From Blautia sp. (GTDB taxonomy: Bacteria > Bacillota > Clostridia > Lachnospirales > Lachnospiraceae): 62,117 bases of DNA. The stretch lies in contig JAMPHB010000007.1 of NCBI GenBank assembly GCA_023663685.1, forward strand, positions 1-62,117, written 5' to 3'. Below, one piece after another: positions 46,540-54,820 of this stretch (positions within the stretch are counted from its first letter, which is position 1; each line of letters starts with the position of its first letter). Position numbers and translations under genes: made by a program. A model generated the notes under the pieces. The model was not told the DNA's origin and did not search any database. It saw only the letters and a list, made by a program, of their open reading frames with translations.

Positions 46540-49161
46540 TTACGGCTTTACCGCCAGCGCCTTTAACATCTCCTGACAAAGTATATTCATATCCACCGGC
46601 TTGGATACATGGCCGTTCATACCGCAGGCCAGGCTCTCCGCGATATCCTCCGCAAAAGCGTCTGCGGTCATGGCAATGATCGGGATATTTCTGATATACT
46701 CCCGGCTGTCCTCGCGGATTGCCTTTGTCGCCTCCCGCCCGTTCATCACCGGCATCTGCACGTCCATAAGGATCAGGTCATAGGTTCCCGGAGGCGCGGC
46801 AGTCAGCATATCCACACAGAGCTGTCCGTTCGGCGCCCAGTCTGCGGCGATGTCCTGCATGGTCAAAAGCTCCGAGATAATCTCCCAGTTCAGGTCGTTG
46901 TCCTCGGCGATCAGCAGATGCCGCCCCGCCAGGTCATCCCTGTCCATCTCCGTGCTGACTGTCTCCCGGTCTTTCGGCTGCTTCTCATATCCGCCGATGG
47001 GAAGCTCGAGAGTGACCGTAAATTTCGTGCCCTTATTTTCCTCGCTCTGACAGTCGATGGTTCCGCCCAGCAGATCCACCATCTGTCTGACGATGGCAAG
47101 ACCAAGTCCTGTTCCCTGAATCTCGTTGATCCGGCTGTCCTTCGCTCTTGCAAAAGTCTCGTACATCGTCTCCATGAACTCTTTCGACATGCCGATGCCG
47201 CTGTCCTCGACCGTGTAGATCAGCCGCACCGTCCTGCCGTCAGGCAGCGCCTCCTCCTTAAGCCCCAGCTCCACCCTGCCGCCCTCCGGCGTGTATTTCA
47301 CCGCGTTCGTCAGTATGTTGATGAAGATCTGGTTTACCCGCACCTCGTCGGCCAGCACCGTCTCGTAATCTATGTCCCCGACACGGACGTCAAACTGCAG
47401 GTCTTTCGCCGCAATCTGGGGGCGCACGATATTTACCAGTGTCTCCACCATATCCTGCAGGGAAAAGACCACCGGATTTAAGGTCAGCCTGCCGCTCTCA
47501 ATCTTCGAGATATCCAGCACATCGTTGATCAGCGTCAGCAGATGATTGCTGGAAACGCTGATTTTTTCCAGACAGTCCCTAAGCTTCTCCCTGTCGCCAA
47601 GATTCTTCATGGCAATGGTCGTCATGCCAATGATCGCGTTCATGGGCGTGCGGATATCGTGGCTCATGCTGGAAAGAAATGTGGTCTTTGCCTCGCTGGC
47701 GACCTCCGCCGCATCCAGCGCCTCCTCCAGAGCCCTGCGGCTCTTCTCCTGCTCCTCGTTAAAGATCCTTGTTCTGCGCCGGTAAGCGATGAACACCCAA
47801 AGCAGAATTGCAAAGAAAATGCACAGTATTGTTATGACCGTCACGGAATACCGGCGGAGAAAATCCATGAATGTGTAGCTTTTTTCCACACTGGAATAAT
47901 GCATCATGGCTCCGTTGATCCTCGCACTGTCGGTCTGCAGGATTGCCTTGTTGAGTATGCCCGCCAGAATCCCGTTCTCCTGCGTCACCTCCAGACAGAA
48001 TTCCTTCGAGATATCCAGGTACGCGACATTCATATCCCGGTACTCCTCGTGCTCGTTCATAAACCGCTGGAGAATGCTGGCGCTTCCGACAATACAGCGC
48101 TCCTCCCCCCGCTCGATCGCGTCAAAGACAGCCTCCCTGGAATCGTAAAAGACCACCTCCGTCTCCGGGTAGTAGGATTCCAGATAGTAGCGCTGCCCCA
48201 GCTCCGCCTGCGTCAGAACCACCCGGTCCATCAGATCGCTGGTATAGCTTCCGCTGTAGACCACCATCACCCGGTCGCTGACAAGGGGGTCGGTCTGCCT
48301 GAAGCCCCTGCTCTCTGTGAGCCAGAGATCGGAGTACACGGGGAAGGCCATGTCGATCTCTCCTGCCGAAAGCCCCTCCTCCATCAGCGCCACATTTTCA
48401 TAACAGACCGTTTCCATATCCACCCGCAGATAATCCGCCAGGATCTCTGTCAGTTCCAAAATGACGCCCGTGGGCTCTCCGTTCTCATCCTGATCACAGA
48501 GCGGAAGATCATTCCTGACATAGCCAATCTTAAGCTTCCCCCTTTCGGCCAGCCACGCACTCTCATTTTCTGTCAAAATCTGCAGCCGGGCGGCCTGCCC
48601 ATAATATTTCTGCCACAGCGACACCTGAAATTCCGGCGTGGAATGTAAAAGCTCCTCCATGGCATAATCCAGCTCCTGCAAGAGCTCTCCCTGCCCCGGG
48701 CTGACGACAAAATACCGTGCTTCCCCCTCCAGTCCCATATCCAGCTTTGAAAAGAGCATCTGCTCTTTTCTCTCGTCCGTTTTGTAGACACCCGCGACAA
48801 TATCCACTTCCCCGGCCAGAAGCTTCTCCATAATCTCTGTCCGCGTGCCGTAAACATACTCGTAGCGCCATCCGGTCAGGGTGCTCAGCTCCTGATAGTA
48901 TTCGTAGGCATAGCCGGATTTTCTCGCGCTCTCCTCAAAGCCGTTCTGAAATGCAATATCTCCGGTATAGTAACCCACCCGGACCTTTCTGCCCCCGCCC
49001 TCTCCCTGCAGCTCCGGCAGATTATAGGTATCCACATTCTCCTCTGTGACTTTTACCGTTCCGGTATCATGGCTGTCCATAGTGTCATGGATCTCCCTGC
49101 CGCTGCATCCCGTCAATAAAAGCAGAAACGCTATCAAAAGTAAAACTGTCTTCCCCCTCAT
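46540..49161 (-). CDS. Hybrid histidine kinase with solute-binding-like sensor domains
   Basis: An 873-residue BvgS/EvgS-like kinase. The N terminus carries a lipoprotein-like signal (LLLIAFLLLLTGCSG). Two SBP_bac_3-type sensor modules follow (~58-195 and ~200-425; LKIGYVRNDLPLCDQDENGEPTGV). The first is short and seems to lack its middle lobe. A membrane helix (VTVITILCIFFAILLWVFIAY) leads to HisKA with H501 (SHDIRTPMNAIIGM), HATPase_c (NILTNAVKYT, DSGIGM, GTGLGLAIV) and a receiver with D800 (LMDVQMP). It likely senses amino acids or similar ligands outside the cell. Its promoter region faces the recombinase cassette. Confidence 0.93.
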   Translation of the reverse strand: MRGKTVLLLIAFLLLLTGCSGREIHDTMDSHDTGTVKVTEENVDTYNLPELQGEGGGRKVRVGYYTGDIAFQNGFEESARKSGYAYEYYQELSTLTGWRYEYVYGTRTEIMEKLLAGEVDIVAGVYKTDERKEQMLFSKLDMGLEGEARYFVVSPGQGELLQELDYAMEELLHSTPEFQVSLWQKYYGQAARLQILTENESAWLAERGKLKIGYVRNDLPLCDQDENGEPTGVILELTEILADYLRVDMETVCYENVALMEEGLSAGEIDMAFPVYSDLWLTESRGFRQTDPLVSDRVMVVYSGSYTSDLMDRVVLTQAELGQRYYLESYYPETEVVFYDSREAVFDAIERGEERCIVGSASILQRFMNEHEEYRDMNVAYLDISKEFCLEVTQENGILAGILNKAILQTDSARINGAMMHYSSVEKSYTFMDFLRRYSVTVITILCIFFAILLWVFIAYRRRTRIFNEEQEKSRRALEEALDAAEVASEAKTTFLSSMSHDIRTPMNAIIGMTTIAMKNLGDREKLRDCLEKISVSSNHLLTLINDVLDISKIESGRLTLNPVVFSLQDMVETLVNIVRPQIAAKDLQFDVRVGDIDYETVLADEVRVNQIFINILTNAVKYTPEGGRVELGLKEEALPDGRTVRLIYTVEDSGIGMSKEFMETMYETFARAKDSRINEIQGTGLGLAIVRQMVDLLGGTIDCQSEENKGTKFTVTLELPIGGYEKQPKDRETVSTEMDRDDLAGRHLLIAEDNDLNWEIISELLTMQDIAADWAPNGQLCVDMLTAAPPGTYDLILMDVQMPVMNGREATKAIREDSREYIRNIPIIAMTADAFAEDIAESLACGMNGHVSKPVDMNILCQEMLKALAVKP

Positions 49162-49266
49162 TGTAAAAACGTCCCCTCTCTTATTCTTTCCGCTTCACAA
49201 ACACTATGTTTACGATACCATAAAATCCGCGGGAAAGCAATTGACGTTTGTTTTGCACGCCAAAAA

Positions 49267-49303
49267 GGAGATGTAACTCAATGTATGATTGTGTTACATC
49301 TCC
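49267..49303. repeat. Left inverted site of the recombinase cassette
   Basis: A 37-bp palindrome: 11-bp perfect outer arms (GGAGATGTAAC / GTTACATCTCC) and an inner CAAT/ATTG pair around GTATG. Bases 49279-49299 are an exact inverted copy of 49969-49989 (21 of 21). Two near-perfect half sites around a short asymmetric core (TGTATGA) is the usual layout of a tyrosine-recombinase crossover site. Confidence 0.85.
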
Positions 49304-49989
49304 CTATGTCACTTATATCGGCAGCAGAGAGAAATACTTAACCCCTTTTTTCAAATTTTTTTATTTTTTATGTCAGGAGGTATCTATGAACCGAGCAGAA
49401 CCAATCAAAAACCCCGAGCAGCTGCAGCTTTTTAAGGACTTTTACCGCACCGTGGAGCCGGACAGCAGGAATTATCTGCTGATTACCGTCGCCCTCAACA
49501 CCGCCCTGCGCATCTCCGACATTCTTGCCCTGCGCTGGGGCGATATCTATGATTTTTCCAAATCCTCCTGCCCCGGGCATCTGGTGGTGACGGAGAAAAA
49601 GACCGGAAAGGAGACACAGATTTTTATCAATGACAGCATCCGTCAGGCTCTCAGGGACTACCGGGACAGCCTTAAGGAAAGTGAGCCGTGTGCAGATACT
49701 TTCCTTTTTCCCGGTTCCCGCACTCCCAGCCTGAACCGGGTGCAGGCCTGGCGAATCATTCGGGAGGCTGCAGAAAAATGCGGAATCTCCGGCGTTATCA
49801 GCCCGCATTCCCTGCGGAAGACCTTCGGCTACCATGCATGGAAGCAGGGCACGCCCCCCGCCATGCTCATGGATATTTACCAGCATTCCTCCTATGAGAT
49901 TACCAAACGCTATCTCGGCATCAGTCAGGACGAGCGGGACGAGATTTTTCGCAATATCGCAATCTGAAATGTAACACAATCATACATTG
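49279..49989. mobile_element. Predicted invertible DNA cassette carrying its own recombinase
   Basis: A 711-bp segment bounded by inverted copies of one palindromic site and containing only a complete tyrosine recombinase gene. Inverted orientation of the cores predicts inversion, not excision. In the present orientation the recombinase reads toward csrA and flagellin. Flipping would change the sequence upstream of csrA (starts 60 bases right) and of the hybrid kinase (starts 118 bases left). The layout is seen directly; inversion is inference. A minimal integrating element with terminal inverted repeats is the alternative. Confidence 0.6.
49386..49967 (+). CDS. Minimal tyrosine recombinase (FimB/FimE-sized)
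   Basis: A 193-residue catalytic-domain-only tyrosine recombinase with all active residues: R42 (TALRISDIL), Lys in the TEKKTGKE beta-hairpin, H141 and R144 (PHSLRKTFG), H167 (YQHSS) and Y176 (TKRYLG). There is no N-terminal core-binding domain. Its size matches FimB/FimE, which invert the fimbrial switch. The ATG at 49386 follows TCAGGAGG; the longer frame would run through the left palindrome. The stop codon ends one base before the right 21-bp site, so gene and site form one compact unit. Confidence 0.92.
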   Translation: MNRAEPIKNPEQLQLFKDFYRTVEPDSRNYLLITVALNTALRISDILALRWGDIYDFSKSSCPGHLVVTEKKTGKETQIFINDSIRQALRDYRDSLKESEPCADTFLFPGSRTPSLNRVQAWRIIREAAEKCGISGVISPHSLRKTFGYHAWKQGTPPAMLMDIYQHSSYEITKRYLGISQDERDEIFRNIAI

Positions 49990-49995
49990 TGTCAC
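49969..49995. repeat. Right inverted site of the recombinase cassette
   Basis: Contains a dyad GTAACACAAT / ATTGTGTCAC around CATAC with one mismatch. Bases 49969-49989 are the exact reverse complement of 49279-49299; beyond them similarity continues with two mismatches over the next six bases. It begins one base after the recombinase stop. Confidence 0.85.
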
Positions 49996-50049
49996 AAACT
50001 TATTCTTCCCCCAAATGACCAAAATTATAAAAATGCGGAGGTCGAAAAT

Positions 50050-50301
50050 ATGTTAAAGCTTTCTTTACATCCGGGTGAGTACATCAATATCGGAGACGAC
50101 ATTCGGGTCGTTTTAGCCGGAGGCATAGGAAACAATATCCAGCTTCTGGTGGACGCGCCTAAGGAGATTCCGATTGCCAGAAGCAGCATGGGCGACGGCC
50201 GCAAAAAGCCTACCGGCTACTATAGGGACGCCGCCCTCTCCGAGGAGGCACAGCAGCAGATTGTAGAAATCATCATGCGTGAAAAGCGCAGAGGGAAGTA
50301 G
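50050..50301 (+). CDS. csrA: Divergent CsrA-family RNA-binding regulator
   Basis: 83 residues; residues 1-50 align without gaps to CsrA (MLKLSLHPGEYINIGDDIRV ... APKEIPIARSSM). L4, G9, E10, G15-D16, A36-P37-K38-E39 and the RNA-contacting R44 are kept, but R6 is Leu and R7 is His. A 30-residue C-terminal tail (SEEAQQQIVEIIMREKRRGK) is longer than usual. CsrA dimers bind GGA-containing hairpins and, in Bacillus, repress flagellin translation under FliW control. GGAGG precedes the ATG at 50050. It lies between the recombinase cassette and flagellin; no fliW is in the window. Confidence 0.85.
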   Translation: MLKLSLHPGEYINIGDDIRVVLAGGIGNNIQLLVDAPKEIPIARSSMGDGRKKPTGYYRDAALSEEAQQQIVEIIMREKRRGK

Positions 50302-50324
50302 GTGTATTATAAGGAGCAAATTCC

Positions 50325-50357
50325 ATGAACAAACGCTTTGCGTTTGGATTTGCGTAA
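50325..50357 (+). CDS. Possible 10-residue leader peptide before flagellin
   Basis: ATG at 50325 with AAGGAG 8 bases upstream, reading MNKRFAFGFA then TAA. The stop codon ends at the foot of a tandem pair of GC-rich hairpins (50357-50409). Three Phe and two Ala in ten codons. The arrangement resembles a translated leader that controls the downstream structure; it may also be a chance frame. Confidence 0.4.
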   Translation: MNKRFAFGFA

Positions 50358-50409
50358 GCAATGCTCCTTCGGAGCGTTACAACAAGCAATACTCCTTCGG
50401 AGCATTACA
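50331..50409 (+). ncRNA. Three consecutive short triloop hairpins in the csrA-flagellin gap
   Basis: Hairpin 1 (50331-50345) is AAACGC-TTT-GCGTTT. Hairpins 2 and 3 are 25-base direct repeats (50357-50381 and 50385-50409, 23 of 25 identical), each with core CTCC-TTC-GGAG. Each repeat carries a GGA in its 3' arm. A structured leader or small RNA that binds CsrA is possible. Confidence 0.5.
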
Positions 50410-50474
50410 GCAGATAATTAGCGGAGCTAACCTAGGGGTTCCGTCAATTATAAAGTCACTTATCAACCATGCAC

Positions 50475-50539
50475 CCCCATAAACGGATTTTAGGGGAAGT
50501 AATTTTTTCACATGAAAACATTACAACTTACAAGGAGGT
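50475..50539 (+). promoter_or_regulatory. Two predicted CsrA-binding sites in the flagellin leader
   Basis: Site 1: hairpin 50475-50496 (CCCC/GGGG outer stem, AAA/TTT inner stem) presents GGA (50485-50487) in its 4-base loop. Site 2: 50528-50539 reads TTACAAGGAGGT, matching the CsrA consensus RUACARGGAUGU at 10 of 12 bases and covering the flagellin Shine-Dalgarno. The two GGAs are 49 bases apart, as in CsrA-bridged leaders. Confidence 0.6.
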
Positions 50540-50545
50540 AAACTT

Positions 50546-52096
50546 ATGGTAGTACAACACAACATGCAGGCAATGAATGCCAACAGAATGCTCAATGTCA
50601 CAACAGGCGCGCAGTCCAAGTCCTCAGAGAAGCTTTCCAGCGGTTACAAGATTAACCGGGCGGCCGACGATGCAGCAGGTCTTTCCATTTCCGAGAAGAT
50701 GCGCAAGCAGATTCGTGGTCTTGACCGCGCATCAACGAACGCGCAGGACGGTATCTCTGCAGTGCAGACAGCGGAAGGTGCCCTGACAGAAGTGCATTCT
50801 ATGTTACAGCGTATGAATGAGCTGGCAGTTCAGGCAGCCAACGGCACGAACAGCGAGTCTGATCGTACCTCTATTCAGAACGAGATTGATCAGCTCACCA
50901 CTGAGATCGACCGCGTTGCCGAGACTACGAAGTTCAACGAGACCTATCTGCTGAAGGGCAACGGCAAGACCTCTGAGGTTAAGATCAATGCCAAAGACGC
51001 GGGTATTGATGGTACACTCAAGGGTGTGGGCACCGGCAAGGTTACATTTACCATGACAGCCCTCAAGAATGGTGACACCATTACCATCGGTTCCAAGGGC
51101 TACACCATTGGTAACACAATTGAGAATGTAAGAACCGCAATTGAGAAGCTTGATGAGACACAATACAAGACGGTCACCATTGACGGGACAGAGTACAAGA
51201 TTGCCGGCGAGGGCGAAAAAGAGGACACGACCGAGAATAAGCTTTCAAAAGAGAATCTGAAAGCACTTGTCCGCGATGGCTCTACTGTTATCGCGGGAAC
51301 CCAGACTTATGTCGCTATGACGGAAGATGTCGTCAAAAAACTTGACGAAAACGGCGATCCCGTCACGGAAGAAGTTAAGATAACGAACGATGACGGAACC
51401 GTGACCACACAGACAAACTTTGTATACGAGAAGCAGGCTGACGGTATCGGGGACAACGATGCATCCGTTATTTCTGCCAAAAAGGCTTACGAGCTGATTC
51501 AGGATGAGCTTCGCAAAGCAAGCAATATCGGCACAGATCCGGGACAGGAAGCAAAGGTAGGCGTTGCCAAAGTAGGCAGCAAAGGCGAGACTGATCTCTC
51601 TATTACAGAGAGTGATGCAAGCTATTATACCTCAGACGCAACACAAGTATCCTTCTATATCGAAGAGGGGCATCGTACTGTTACGCAGGGCTTACAATTT
51701 ACACTTCATGTAGGCGCAGACGCGGACGAGACGAACAAGATTGCTACTACAATCGACACGATGGATTCCGCAGGACTCGGCGTAAAGGGCTTAAACCTCG
51801 TGGACAACACGGGCGCAAAGGCGACCTACGCGATTGATTCCATCTCAGATGCAATTGCAAAGGTTTCTGCCCAGAGATCTGCTCTCGGTGCGGTCCAGAA
51901 CCGTCTTGAGCACACAATTGCCAACCTAGATAATGTCGTGGAAAATACCACAAGTGCAGAGTCCCAGATTCGCGATACCGATATGGCTGAGGAGATGGTG
52001 AACTACAGCAAGAACAACATTCTTGCACAGGCGGGCCAGTCAATGCTCGCGCAGGCAAACCAGTCGAATCAGGGTGTACTTTCCTTACTCGGATAA
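50546..52096 (+). CDS. hag: Flagellin
   Basis: A 516-residue flagellin, the filament subunit secreted by the flagellar export apparatus. The N-terminal D0/D1 (MVVQHNMQAMNANRMLNVTT ... SSEKLSSGYKINRAADDAAGLSISEKMR) and the C-terminal D1/D0 (SAQRSALGAVQNRLEHTIANLDNVVENTT ... ILAQAGQSMLAQANQ) are canonical. The central region (~150-420) is variable and exposed. No signal peptide, as expected. AAGGAGG precedes the ATG and overlaps a CsrA-like site. No clear sigma-28 promoter was found in the 244-base gap upstream. Confidence 0.97.
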   Translation: MVVQHNMQAMNANRMLNVTTGAQSKSSEKLSSGYKINRAADDAAGLSISEKMRKQIRGLDRASTNAQDGISAVQTAEGALTEVHSMLQRMNELAVQAANGTNSESDRTSIQNEIDQLTTEIDRVAETTKFNETYLLKGNGKTSEVKINAKDAGIDGTLKGVGTGKVTFTMTALKNGDTITIGSKGYTIGNTIENVRTAIEKLDETQYKTVTIDGTEYKIAGEGEKEDTTENKLSKENLKALVRDGSTVIAGTQTYVAMTEDVVKKLDENGDPVTEEVKITNDDGTVTTQTNFVYEKQADGIGDNDASVISAKKAYELIQDELRKASNIGTDPGQEAKVGVAKVGSKGETDLSITESDASYYTSDATQVSFYIEEGHRTVTQGLQFTLHVGADADETNKIATTIDTMDSAGLGVKGLNLVDNTGAKATYAIDSISDAIAKVSAQRSALGAVQNRLEHTIANLDNVVENTTSAESQIRDTDMAEEMVNYSKNNILAQAGQSMLAQANQSNQGVLSLLG

Positions 52097-52397: not shown

Positions 52398-52509
52398 ATC
52401 ACTCCATCTCTAATAGTATTATATGAAACTGTGTGGAGTATGTCAAATAAATTTAAAATTTTTTCTTTATTTGATAAGAATATATAATTATCCAGCTCCG
52501 CACCACTGC

Positions 52510-52674
52510 CATTCACCCGCCAATCTGCATCCTGCACCAGAGCCGTCTGCCGGACACGACGCAGACGACAGCAAGCACGAGGTATACCAGCGGCGCAAGC
52601 TGGTATCCGGTAAGCCCCCATAGAGCGACCTCCCTGCCATATCTCGCACACAGAAAGAGCTGGTCTGTCTTTTT
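52510..52674 (-). pseudogene. Truncated, internally deleted copy of the ABC permease gene
   Basis: 52513-52625 repeats the last ~113 bases of the permease at 53657-54820, including its stop, with two substitutions and one lost C. It is joined directly to a copy of an internal stretch of the same gene (52621-52674 against 54171-54223). The roughly 400 bases between are missing. The junction sits at CCATAGAGC, a 9-base direct repeat present at both ends of the missing part in the intact gene. Translated it reads KKTDQLFLCARYGRE fused to GLTGYQLAPLVYLVLA. Confidence 0.9.
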
Positions 52675-52813
52675 AATCCGCAAAAAATACTTTTCAACCG
52701 CCACATTTCAATGTATACTATTTACATATCCCCAGCGTCAGAAAATTGATACCGTCACAGGTTACAAGAATGCAAACTCTCTAAAAGATAAAAACTGAAA
52801 GGAATCTAAAAAA

Positions 52814-53602
52814 TTGCAGACAAGCACAGAACAGCAGGCACTCATCAGACATCTGAATGTAATAGATGATATGTTTTTCCATAAAATTGCAGAGGACAAC
52901 GCTGTTTGCGAGGAAATCCTGCGGATTATCCTCCAAAAACCAAAATTGAAAGTTATAGATGCACAGCCACAACGTTTCCTGCGCAATATTGGGGCACATT
53001 CCGTAATCCTTGATTTACTATGCGAGGACGAAAATGGTTCAAGAATCAATGTCGAATTGCAAAAAACCGATGATGATGACCATGTAAAACGTGTACGTTT
53101 CAACAGTGCCAACATCGACACAACTTTTACAGAAAAAGGATTAGACTATAAAAATCTTCCTGACATTTATGTGATTTTTATTTCTAAATTTGATATATTT
53201 CAGGAAGGTAAAACCATTTACCATTTGAAGACTATCATTAAGGAAACCGGAACCTCCATAGATGATGGCATCCATCGGATATTCGCAAATTGTGCTGTAA
53301 ATGATGGATCCGATATTGCGGAGTTAATGCAATACTTTAAAAACAGCACTGGCAAAAACAACAAATTTCCAAAATTATCAAATCGGGTATGTTATTTTAA
53401 AGAATCAAAGGAAGGAGCTGACGCTATGACACAAGTTGTTGAAGAATATGCAAATAAAAAAGTTCTTGAGAGAGACAAGGAAACAGCCAGATTATTTTTA
53501 CAGAATGGTGCATCTATTGAACTGGTAAAAAAATCCATCCCGACCCTTTCCGTAGAATTTATCGAAAAACTAAGCCTACAACTTACATCTGTGGATCAAT
53601 AA
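52814..53602 (+). CDS. Rpn family PD-(D/E)XK nuclease / transposase-like protein
   Basis: A 262-residue protein of the PDDEXK_2 group (Rpn, recombination-promoting nuclease). The catalytic region is recognisable as SVILDLLCEDENGSRINVELQK (Asp, then ExQ-type end) with DDDDHVKRVRFNSANID after it. The C terminus has the helical LERDKETARLFLQNGASIELVKKS segment. Family members cut DNA and promote RecA-independent recombination. It starts at TTG behind AAAGGA. It is AT-rich compared with its surroundings and lies between two copies of the permease 3' end. Confidence 0.88.
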   Translation: MQTSTEQQALIRHLNVIDDMFFHKIAEDNAVCEEILRIILQKPKLKVIDAQPQRFLRNIGAHSVILDLLCEDENGSRINVELQKTDDDDHVKRVRFNSANIDTTFTEKGLDYKNLPDIYVIFISKFDIFQEGKTIYHLKTIIKETGTSIDDGIHRIFANCAVNDGSDIAELMQYFKNSTGKNNKFPKLSNRVCYFKESKEGADAMTQVVEEYANKKVLERDKETARLFLQNGASIELVKKSIPTLSVEFIEKLSLQLTSVDQ

Positions 53603-53606
53603 TAAA

Positions 53607-53640
53607 GCATGGGCATGTCCGATGCCACACATGCCCATGC
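53607..53640. terminator. Hairpin between convergent Rpn and permease genes
   Basis: Perfect 12-bp arms GCATGGGCATGT / ACATGCCCATGC with a 10-base loop, 4 bases after the Rpn stop and 16 bases from the permease stop. No strong T-run follows on either side. Confidence 0.6.
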
Positions 53641-53656
53641 CCCGCCCCAATTTCAC

Positions 53657-54820
53657 TCACCCGCCAATCTGCATCCTGCACCAGAGCCGTCTGCCGGACA
53701 CGACGCAGACGACGGCAAGCACGAGGTATACCAGCGGTGCAAGCTGGTATCCGGTAAGCCCCCCATAGAGCCGGAGTTCCAGAAATCCCTGATCCACTTT
53801 CAGCATATTGATGGGAATTAAATTCCACAGCATGGAAAGCACGCGCCAGTCCTGCGGAACCGGAATCAGCCGCGCCGCAAACACAGCCCCGATGAGAATT
53901 GCCATCGCCCCCAGACTATGATGCAAAAGCTGTGCCAGAAGCATGGCGATCAGGCCAATCAACAGCGAGGACAAAAACAGGATGCCGACCATAATCAGGC
54001 AGGTCTCGCCGATGGAAAGCGCGTGGGGAAAGATAAAGGCAAGCCCCATCTGAATGCTCTCATCAAAGCCCGATGCGCCATAATAAAGAAAATGCCCCAG
54101 CAGATACACGCCCTCTATCAGCGCGGAGGCGGCAAGCACCACTATGCTTCCCGCAATGAGCTTCGCACCATAGAGCGGCTCCCTGCCGTATCTCGCGCAC
54201 AGAAGGAGCTGGTCTGTCTTTTTCGCACTCTCCTCGGTGAACACTCCCACCATGCAGACTGCAATAAAAAAAGTGATCAGCATACTGGTCATATAAACGC
54301 CGTTCATGCTCGACAGGGCTTCCCAGGTTCCGGCATATTCATAGATAAAAGGCTTTTCAACATCTGCCTCCTGCTTTTCCCAGTGTGCCTTCTCGCTGTC
54401 CGTGAGGCCATAGCTGTCAAACATTGCAGACTGCAGATTTTCACGGAGCCGGTAAATATCCCCTGTGGCATCTGCCCCCACCCCGCCATACAAAAGCTTT
54501 GCCCGCAGATCCATGTAGGGCAGAATCTGTGTCTTATACACATCTGACTGCCAGTAATCGTCACTCCAGTAATCCTCCCCGAGCTCCGCAATCTCCGCTT
54601 CCACTTCGGCGACCTCCGCAACCAGTGATTCGTCCAGTGTGCGCCCCACGATTTTTTCCGCGGCAGCCTGCTCAAGCCCCGGCGTATCGCCATACATAAA
54701 ATCCCCTATGTAACCCGAAAAGCCGATAAACGCCTGCACGCCAAGCATTGCAATAAAAGCCGCCCATGTACTCGTCCTCTTTAACAGCTTTTTTATCTCA
54801 TAGCCAATCAAATGCCTCAT
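53657..54820 (-). CDS. ABC transporter permease (ABC-2 type)
   Basis: A 387-residue permease. The N-terminal cytosolic KKLLKRTSTWAAF runs into helix 1, a large extracytoplasmic loop (~40-170) follows, then five further helices in the second half (SMLITFFIAVCMVGVF, LIAGSIVVLAASALIEGVYLL, GETCLIMVGILFLSSLLIGLIAMLLAQLL, ending LVYLVLAVVCVVSGRRL). The layout is typical of antimicrobial-peptide or bacteriocin exporters/immunity pumps. The ATG overlaps the ATPase stop by 4 bases. Its last ~113 bases are duplicated downstream (52510-52674). Confidence 0.9.
   Translation of the reverse strand: MRHLIGYEIKKLLKRTSTWAAFIAMLGVQAFIGFSGYIGDFMYGDTPGLEQAAAEKIVGRTLDESLVAEVAEVEAEIAELGEDYWSDDYWQSDVYKTQILPYMDLRAKLLYGGVGADATGDIYRLRENLQSAMFDSYGLTDSEKAHWEKQEADVEKPFIYEYAGTWEALSSMNGVYMTSMLITFFIAVCMVGVFTEESAKKTDQLLLCARYGREPLYGAKLIAGSIVVLAASALIEGVYLLGHFLYYGASGFDESIQMGLAFIFPHALSIGETCLIMVGILFLSSLLIGLIAMLLAQLLHHSLGAMAILIGAVFAARLIPVPQDWRVLSMLWNLIPINMLKVDQGFLELRLYGGLTGYQLAPLVYLVLAVVCVVSGRRLWCRMQIGG

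Follow-up and report, generated by a model that had tools for sequence, protein, structure and literature searches.

The window, by which we mean the whole stretch of 62,117 nucleotides analysed here, contains a self-contained cassette in which a tyrosine recombinase gene (49386..49967, plus strand) lies between two inverted sites of approximately 27 bp, adjoining a csrA-like gene and a flagellin gene. The left recombination site (49272..49302, plus strand) is on the side of a gene for a hybrid sensor histidine kinase (46540..49161, minus strand), the distal neighbour of the cassette, and the right site (49966..49996, minus strand), an inverted copy of the left one, is on the csrA side. There, the gene for a CsrA-like paralogue of 83 amino acids with a C-terminal tail (50050..50301, plus strand) is followed by the flagellin gene (50546..52096, plus strand; PF00669 and PF00700), and the two are the first and second genes of the operon that is presumably switched. 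A sigma-28-type promoter, predicted by consensus match (TTAAGTAT-N11-GCCGATAT, 49315..49341, minus strand), is located inside the cassette between the left site and the recombinase gene. It points left, out of the cassette and away from csrA-flagellin, and its −10 box ends 12 nt from the left site. The preliminary description of this DNA had recognised the inversion cassette, a reading that our analysis largely upholds, but had missed this outward promoter inside the left end. Further along in the window (52488-53830), an ORF of 262 amino acids (52814-53602) lies between two stretches carrying the same ABC permease gene end (ORF 52513-52704 and the end of ORF 53657-54820), which looks like the trace of an element that entered with a partial duplication.

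Direct reading of the sequence at 49279-49299 gives CAATGTATGATTGTGTTACAT, which is identical in 21 of 21 positions to the reverse complement of 49969-49989; the inverted repeat extends to 31 nt with 90% identity (49272-49302 against 49966-49996). Each site contains a dyad, TGTAACTCAAT-GTATG-ATTGTGTTACA, whose short core is asymmetric; relative to each other, the sites are inverted. The coordinates and identities in the preliminary description are thus exact, as are its two half sites around an asymmetric core and its placing of the recombinase stop (49967) one base before the right site (49969). Throughout the genome of the window (2.3 Mb, 81.78% complete) the 27-bp site was found at two places, both in the window, with up to three mismatches allowed.

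The recombinase comprises 193 amino acids from ATG to stop and is the presumed invertase. It matches PF00589 over the catalytic domain (94.5 bits, cut-off 27.1, E 8.5e-27), which is its only Pfam match, and no NCBIfam model scored above its cut-off. The residues R42, K75, H141, R144, H167 and Y176 are invariant in all 42 aligned relatives; we take them to be the active-site set of tyrosine recombinases (Arg, Lys, His-x-x-Arg, His, Tyr). A structure model built from the alignment of these 42 relatives (pLDDT 86.9) has the catalytic-domain fold, and the nearest PDB folds are Xer recombinases (XerA 5hxy, E 3.9e-7; 4a8e, TM 0.72 by query length); a phage integrase and the integrase of Tn1549 rank closely after them. 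The best-ranked full-length recombinases have 266-353 residues. The shorter length of the window enzyme agrees with its earlier description as catalytic-only.

Relatives of the locus were gathered by recombinase similarity alone, from three sources: 60 related genomes, from which the 20 best places outside the window were taken with long flanks; assembled genome contigs, of whose 139 places the best 80 were used; and the genus, represented by 62 genomes including the window's own, 28 of which have a relative at E ≤ 1e-25, with some second copies left out. The window and 117 further loci, minus seven duplicates, gave 111 distinct loci, and 110 of the 111 recombinases passed a filter on length and an open frame. 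A csrA-like or flagellin gene adjoins the recombinase in 93 of the 111 loci. Inverted sites enclose the recombinase in 80 of these 93 linked loci when 600 nt upstream and 800 nt downstream are searched, so that homologous recombinases with flanking sites, which the preliminary description had proposed to look for, do exist; a lack of sites around close homologues, which it had named as refuting the switch, is not what we found. For the control the search was confined to 300 nt on either side of the recombinase and an enclosing inverted repeat had to score at least 14; of the 99 real loci 69 have such a repeat, compared to 1 of 492 shifted windows and 2 of 297 shuffles. On the same scale, the repeat of the window scores 23.5.

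In the wider search (600 nt upstream, 800 nt downstream) and at its threshold, enclosing sites were not found in 13 of the 93 linked loci. Four of them (L039, L100, L102 and L048) are built differently: the recombinase, upstream of csrA, lies outside a smaller inverted-repeat segment that holds a sigma-28-like promoter (scores 18.5-22.5). Two have weak sites (L040, where they were seen by eye in its duplicate L120, and L070), and in L072 the partner site is 1.2 kb downstream, beyond the span searched. No sites were found at the remaining six (L044, L061, L091, L112, L119 and L129). Among the 18 loci away from csrA and flagellin, three have enclosing repeats and one has a promoter match. The recombinases of L046 and L051, away from csrA and flagellin, lie inside inverted repeats (scores 31 and 23.5). 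L045, L047 and L049 have an inverted-repeat pair on the upstream side of the recombinase with neither csrA nor flagellin nearby, and are perhaps ordinary invertible promoters of other genes.

The nearest relative of the window, L053, has a recombinase with 94% identity, the same flagellin and kinase-side neighbours, and the same orientation. It is labelled as a Muribaculaceae MAG, a label at odds with its gene content and probably wrong.

An outward sigma-28-type promoter just inside one site is present in 77 of the 80 linked loci with enclosing sites, at a score of at least 19; the consensus, the score weights and the thresholds are our own and were set after a first look at the data. In all 77 the promoter is inside the cassette, and in 75 of them the −10 box ends 8-23 nt from the site. 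At the same score, matches occur in 23 of 492 windows shifted by 2.5-4.5 kb and in 9 of 111 cases when the same flanks are read inward. The three loci with sites and without a promoter of score 19 are L121, L122 and L132, two of which have a motif of score 18. As consensus matches, the promoters thus lie inside the segment and point outward, as in an invertible-promoter switch. In the window, the −10 octamer GCCGATAT is located on the minus strand at 49315-49322; the octamer alone occurs five times in the window, compared to a shuffle mean of 2.4. A sigma-28 pattern with an exact −35 box has no match in the window because the −35 box there departs at two places. A loose pattern has 20 matches in the whole genome and its reversed control has 8. 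A general promoter and terminator scan of 49150-50560 returned five promoter-like matches (shuffle mean 1.8) and one terminator-like site (shuffle mean 1.3). A promoter for the recombinase gene itself could not be placed by a search for sigma-A-type motifs: the best scores (at least 9 of 12 in 44 of the 77 loci) were barely above those of shuffles and their positions were scattered, and these candidates were rejected.

Two builds can be distinguished among the 77 loci, and a single change on the recombinase tree (110 rows) accounts for the difference. The promoter is at the 5′ end of the recombinase gene and divergent from it in 17, the window included, and at the 3′ end in 60. It points away from csrA in 15 of the 17 and in 56 of the 60. 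Since the promoter is in this predicted OFF state in most genomes of both builds, the state of the promoter and not the direction of the recombinase gene is what they have in common. In the four loci with the recombinase outside the segment, the promoter in the OFF state also points away from csrA and there towards the recombinase gene.

The orientation of the window corresponds to the predicted OFF state, and a flip would aim the promoter at csrA-flagellin. Among the 77 loci, 71 are OFF and six are ON (L057, L062, L080, L084, L098 and L111), a ratio of twelve to one across species with one genome per species; L108 is counted as OFF although its promoter faces a second flagellin gene. On the recombinase tree, six changes are required to account for the six ON rows, and well-supported branches force at least five of these changes. 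Left out of the tree, yet counted among the 71 OFF loci, is L052 (G010:C2:222580-223054), whose recombinase is split into two open fragments although its sites and promoter are still present; its switch may be locked. A single orientation everywhere was named in the preliminary description as evidence against a switch. Both orientations relative to csrA were found, across species and not within one species, with the junctions at the sites.

These junctions were followed in seven related pairs. Six pairs have opposite states (L055/L057, L081/L111, L086/L111, L084/L118, L041/L098 and L062/L055); in each of them the csrA-side flanks match on the plus strand and the cassettes on the minus strand. 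In the pair of the same state (L080/L084), the match of the cassettes is on the plus strand. The csrA-side flanks of the opposite-state pairs align over 212 to 327 nt next to the site; the distal flanks align over only 30-49 nt, or 35-49 nt in the pairs of opposite state, which is mostly the site itself. L055 and L057 have recombinase genes with 83% identity and opposite states. Both have the outer half-site GTAACAGATT on the csrA side, although the cassette between is turned, and both have GTAACACAAT as the distal outer half-site. The half-sites thus stay with their flanks while the cassette is turned, as expected from an exchange at the core.

Tyrosine recombinases need an identical crossover region. 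We compared the cores after locating the sites by their arms only, blind to the core, which yielded both sites in 45 of the 93 linked loci. In 44 of these 45 loci the two sites have the same 7-bp core; 32 distinct cores occur, and 1.8% are identical between loci; in the window the inverted sites share 21 identical bp. In idle sites, mutation would erode the identity of the cores. The sites, the catalytic residues, the promoter motif and its place, the orientations across species and the junctions at the sites, all compared at the level of sequence, point to a cassette that flips itself, and it is very probably a self-inverting flagellin phase switch.

The excess of OFF loci could also mean that flipping is rare or that states are fixed. 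The cassette might accordingly be a relic that once inverted and is now fixed in most lineages, its orientation recording old events. The ratio of 71 to 6, the orientation common to the window and L053, the linked loci in which enclosing sites are weak or absent and the broken recombinase of L052 would agree with this. A relic is nevertheless unlikely, as the cores are identical within loci yet different between them, the catalytic residues are invariant, nearly all recombinases retain an open frame of proper length, and the ON state appears at six positions on the tree, in one case within a pair as close as L055/L057.

If the cassette is a self-inverting switch, its effect could be on the recombinase itself, inversion mainly cutting the gene off from a promoter outside the cassette, with csrA-flagellin as a bystander or served by read-through. 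Some recombinase genes start approximately 20-50 nt from the site, so that their promoter may overlap the site or lie outside, and the OFF promoter of the four loci with the recombinase outside the segment is directed towards the recombinase gene. We consider autoregulation as the main function quite improbable, because a consistent sigma-A-type promoter was not found and because it leaves both the outward sigma-28-type promoter beside one site and the csrA/flagellin neighbourhood in 93 of 111 loci unexplained. A flip acts most likely via the outward sigma-28-type promoter and not via the recombinase gene.

The flagellin genes beside cassettes differ in their own promoters from other flagellin genes. 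The window flagellin has no sigma-28-like promoter within 450 nt upstream at a score of at least 17. We compared flagellin genes in the genome of the window and nine others, locating starts by similarity; 34 loci entered (4 of a first set of 5, and 30 of 51 matches), and five without a start were dropped. An own sigma-28 promoter (score 19, within 400 nt) precedes none of the 14 csrA- or recombinase-linked flagellin genes versus 11 of the 15 stand-alone genes, one of these 11 matches (L201) being weak and far upstream. This comparison replaced an earlier one that used a start-codon pattern, found few starts and returned a promoter in 0 of 16 flagellin genes beside cassettes and in 0 of 10 others. 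In 4 of the 77 loci, the 450 nt beyond the csrA-side site contain a promoter that faces csrA. At L108 (5600-6950) the cassette lies between two divergent flagellin genes with products that are 79% identical and leaders that are closely similar; csrA was not found at this cassette locus. Judged from this arrangement, a flip at L108 would swap one flagellin for the other.

The promoter could conversely be meant for the sensor kinase, with csrA-flagellin as the off side. In the window it faces the kinase gene approximately 150 nt from its start, and a related gene is kept there in L053. The distal gene, judged by its position and first residues only, is shared by some near relatives but differs in kind and direction between lineages, whereas the csrA/flagellin neighbour is constant in 93 of 111 loci. 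Four csrA-flagellin operons that lack a recombinase in their vicinity were also inspected: a sigma-28-like motif precedes csrA in L207 and L208, L209 has a motif with a poor −10 box and L210 has none. The kinase as the true target, which we regard as highly improbable, was rejected because of the variable distal and constant csrA/flagellin neighbours. The preliminary description had the cassette flip between the promoter region of the kinase and the csrA-flagellin unit; csrA-flagellin stands as the target and the kinase side does not. It had also suggested phase variation of motility. This would hold for one flagellin operon and not for motility as a whole, because the other flagellins of the genome have their own sigma-28-like promoters.

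It is scarcely credible that the cassette is a small mobile element inserting beside flagellin operons, the two orientations being separate insertions: its gene is compact with inverted ends, and 18 of 111 related recombinases (three with enclosing repeats) lie away from csrA and flagellin, but the window's genome has a single pair of the sites, and a transposon-like element was rejected on the csrA-side half-site, which does not leave the csrA flank in turned cassettes (L055/L057), and on that flank, which aligns up to the site in oppositely oriented relatives, the alignments of the distal flank being too brief to add much.

The self-inverting flagellin switch, as we propose it, would work as follows. 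The tyrosine recombinase would bind the two inverted sites and exchange strands within the 7-bp core. A segment of approximately 700 bp between the core centres would turn over within a strain, carrying with it the recombinase gene and the promoter, which we infer to be active with the sigma factor that its motif suggests. In the ON state, transcription from the promoter would cross the csrA-side site and enter the genes of the csrA paralogue and the flagellin; by arithmetic, a flip in the window would bring the −10 box to approximately 97 nt before the csrA start. In the OFF state, that of the window, it would point away from csrA-flagellin. Because the recombinase gene in the build of the window reads towards csrA when OFF, this state could leak some csrA-flagellin transcript by read-through. 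As the cell's other flagellins are served by promoters of their own, the switch would add or remove one flagellin, together with a CsrA-like regulator.

This presumed regulator is not the canonical CsrA of the genome. The window paralogue scores 55.1 bits against PF02599, versus 91.7 bits for the other copy in the genome. Each of ten genomes encodes a single canonical CsrA (90.6-94.4 bits) beside at least one paralogue (51.5-62.6 bits), and 15 of the 18 paralogues in the nine other genomes are within 1 kb of a flagellin match. For the alignment of paralogues, 8 of 19 loci could not be parsed and were dropped. The 11 parsed paralogues have a distinct sequence (MLKLSLKPGEYIDIG and similar) and a C-terminal extension that is absent from the 10 canonical copies. 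The tail pattern was found in 7 of the 11 and in 0 of the 10 canonical copies; the remaining four have K for R, as judged by eye. Of three flagellin leaders that were folded, that of the window and one other show a GGA in a hairpin loop and the third does not, which is too little to claim control by CsrA. The sections of PMC3720852 on this subject state that CsrA inhibits flagellin expression in Bacillus subtilis. The CsrA-like paralogue might act on the other flagellins.

This leads to a bolder reading, which we consider possible while leaning somewhat against it: a flagellar antigen switch similar to Hin/fljBA might have evolved independently in the Roseburia group, in which the ON transcript would encode both an alternative flagellin and its own CsrA-like protein. 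By reducing translation of the standing flagellins, this dedicated protein would cause the filament to be exchanged and not just supplemented. In some species (L108) the promoter would alternate between two divergent flagellins, and the bias towards OFF would reflect gut selection against the switched flagellin.

In Salmonella, the gene for the Hin invertase lies inside the invertible segment. The layout found here is, by sequence, similar, with the invertase gene in the segment and a promoter able to face a flagellin gene and a regulator-like gene. In both cases the operon also encodes a regulator of another flagellin, FljA (produced along with FljB) in Salmonella and here the CsrA-like protein with its presumed action; these are different proteins. 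According to the parts of PMC9368917 that treat Hin/hix/fljBA, the invertible segment, termed Hin-composed there, lies between two repeat sites and its promoter reaches the flagellin operon in one orientation, as the cassette would allow here. Hin is a serine recombinase that works with an enhancer and Fis (PMC9368917 and PMC11868660, in their passages on Hin), unlike the enzyme of the window, which is a tyrosine recombinase with another fold and has PF00589 as its sole Pfam match. A further difference is the sigma-28-type promoter beside the site. The resemblance is convergent, not homologous, and the cassette does not belong to the Hin family.

The passages of PMC5386303 on the Cdi4 switch of C. 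difficile describe a promoterless segment of 154 bp that is flipped by RecV, an enzyme shared with the cwpV switch, and that affects the early flgB operon at a stage after transcription has started. As far as that source goes, the systems share a tyrosine recombinase, flagellar genes and a host from the Clostridia. Unlike Cdi4, which because of its 154 bp is too short to hold the RecV gene, the cassette contains a promoter and its own recombinase gene and lies before one csrA-flagellin operon.

The E. coli genes fimB and fimE lie outside the invertible fimS. FimB and FimE resemble the window recombinase as tyrosine recombinases of approximately 200 amino acids, and the window recombinase matches the FimB/FimE-type model NF007371 with 47.7 bits and NF007370 with 37.9 bits, but these scores are far below the family cut-offs (222 and 221 bits). 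PMC11868660 states, in the parts concerned, that FimB and FimE invert a promoter. The invertons of PhaseFinder, as these parts present them, likewise have a promoter between inverted repeats that is flipped by a recombinase, and are intergenic, unlike the segment here, which contains a whole gene. A screen for intergenic invertons may have passed over the cassette for this reason.

For Roseburia, Eubacterium and other Lachnospiraceae, a description of an inversion switch of flagellin was not found in the open-licence literature (titles and beginnings of abstracts among the matches listed, subscription papers and preprints aside). In the portions of PMC3720852, PMC11913394, PMC5903667 and PMC11868660 covered by a term search, such a switch is not mentioned.

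From their sequences, many gut bacteria of the Roseburia group appear to carry a cassette that flips itself and thereby connects or disconnects the promoter of a flagellin operon. Clostridiales and Lachnospiraceae, Roseburia included, are reported as the targets of most anti-flagellin antibodies in patients with Crohn's disease or chronic fatigue syndrome (PMC11285207, in the sections on these responses). Flagellin abundance reportedly varied in cultures of R. inulinivorans, for which weak promoters are suggested as the cause in the corresponding part of PMC3720852; a flip switch before the flagellin operon would be another possible cause. If true, this would be a clear case of convergence, in which the Salmonella layout of a recombinase in the segment, an outward promoter, a flagellin and a regulator was rebuilt from a different recombinase family. 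As the predicted ON and OFF states can be read from assembled genomes, it can be asked when and where gut bacteria show which flagellin.
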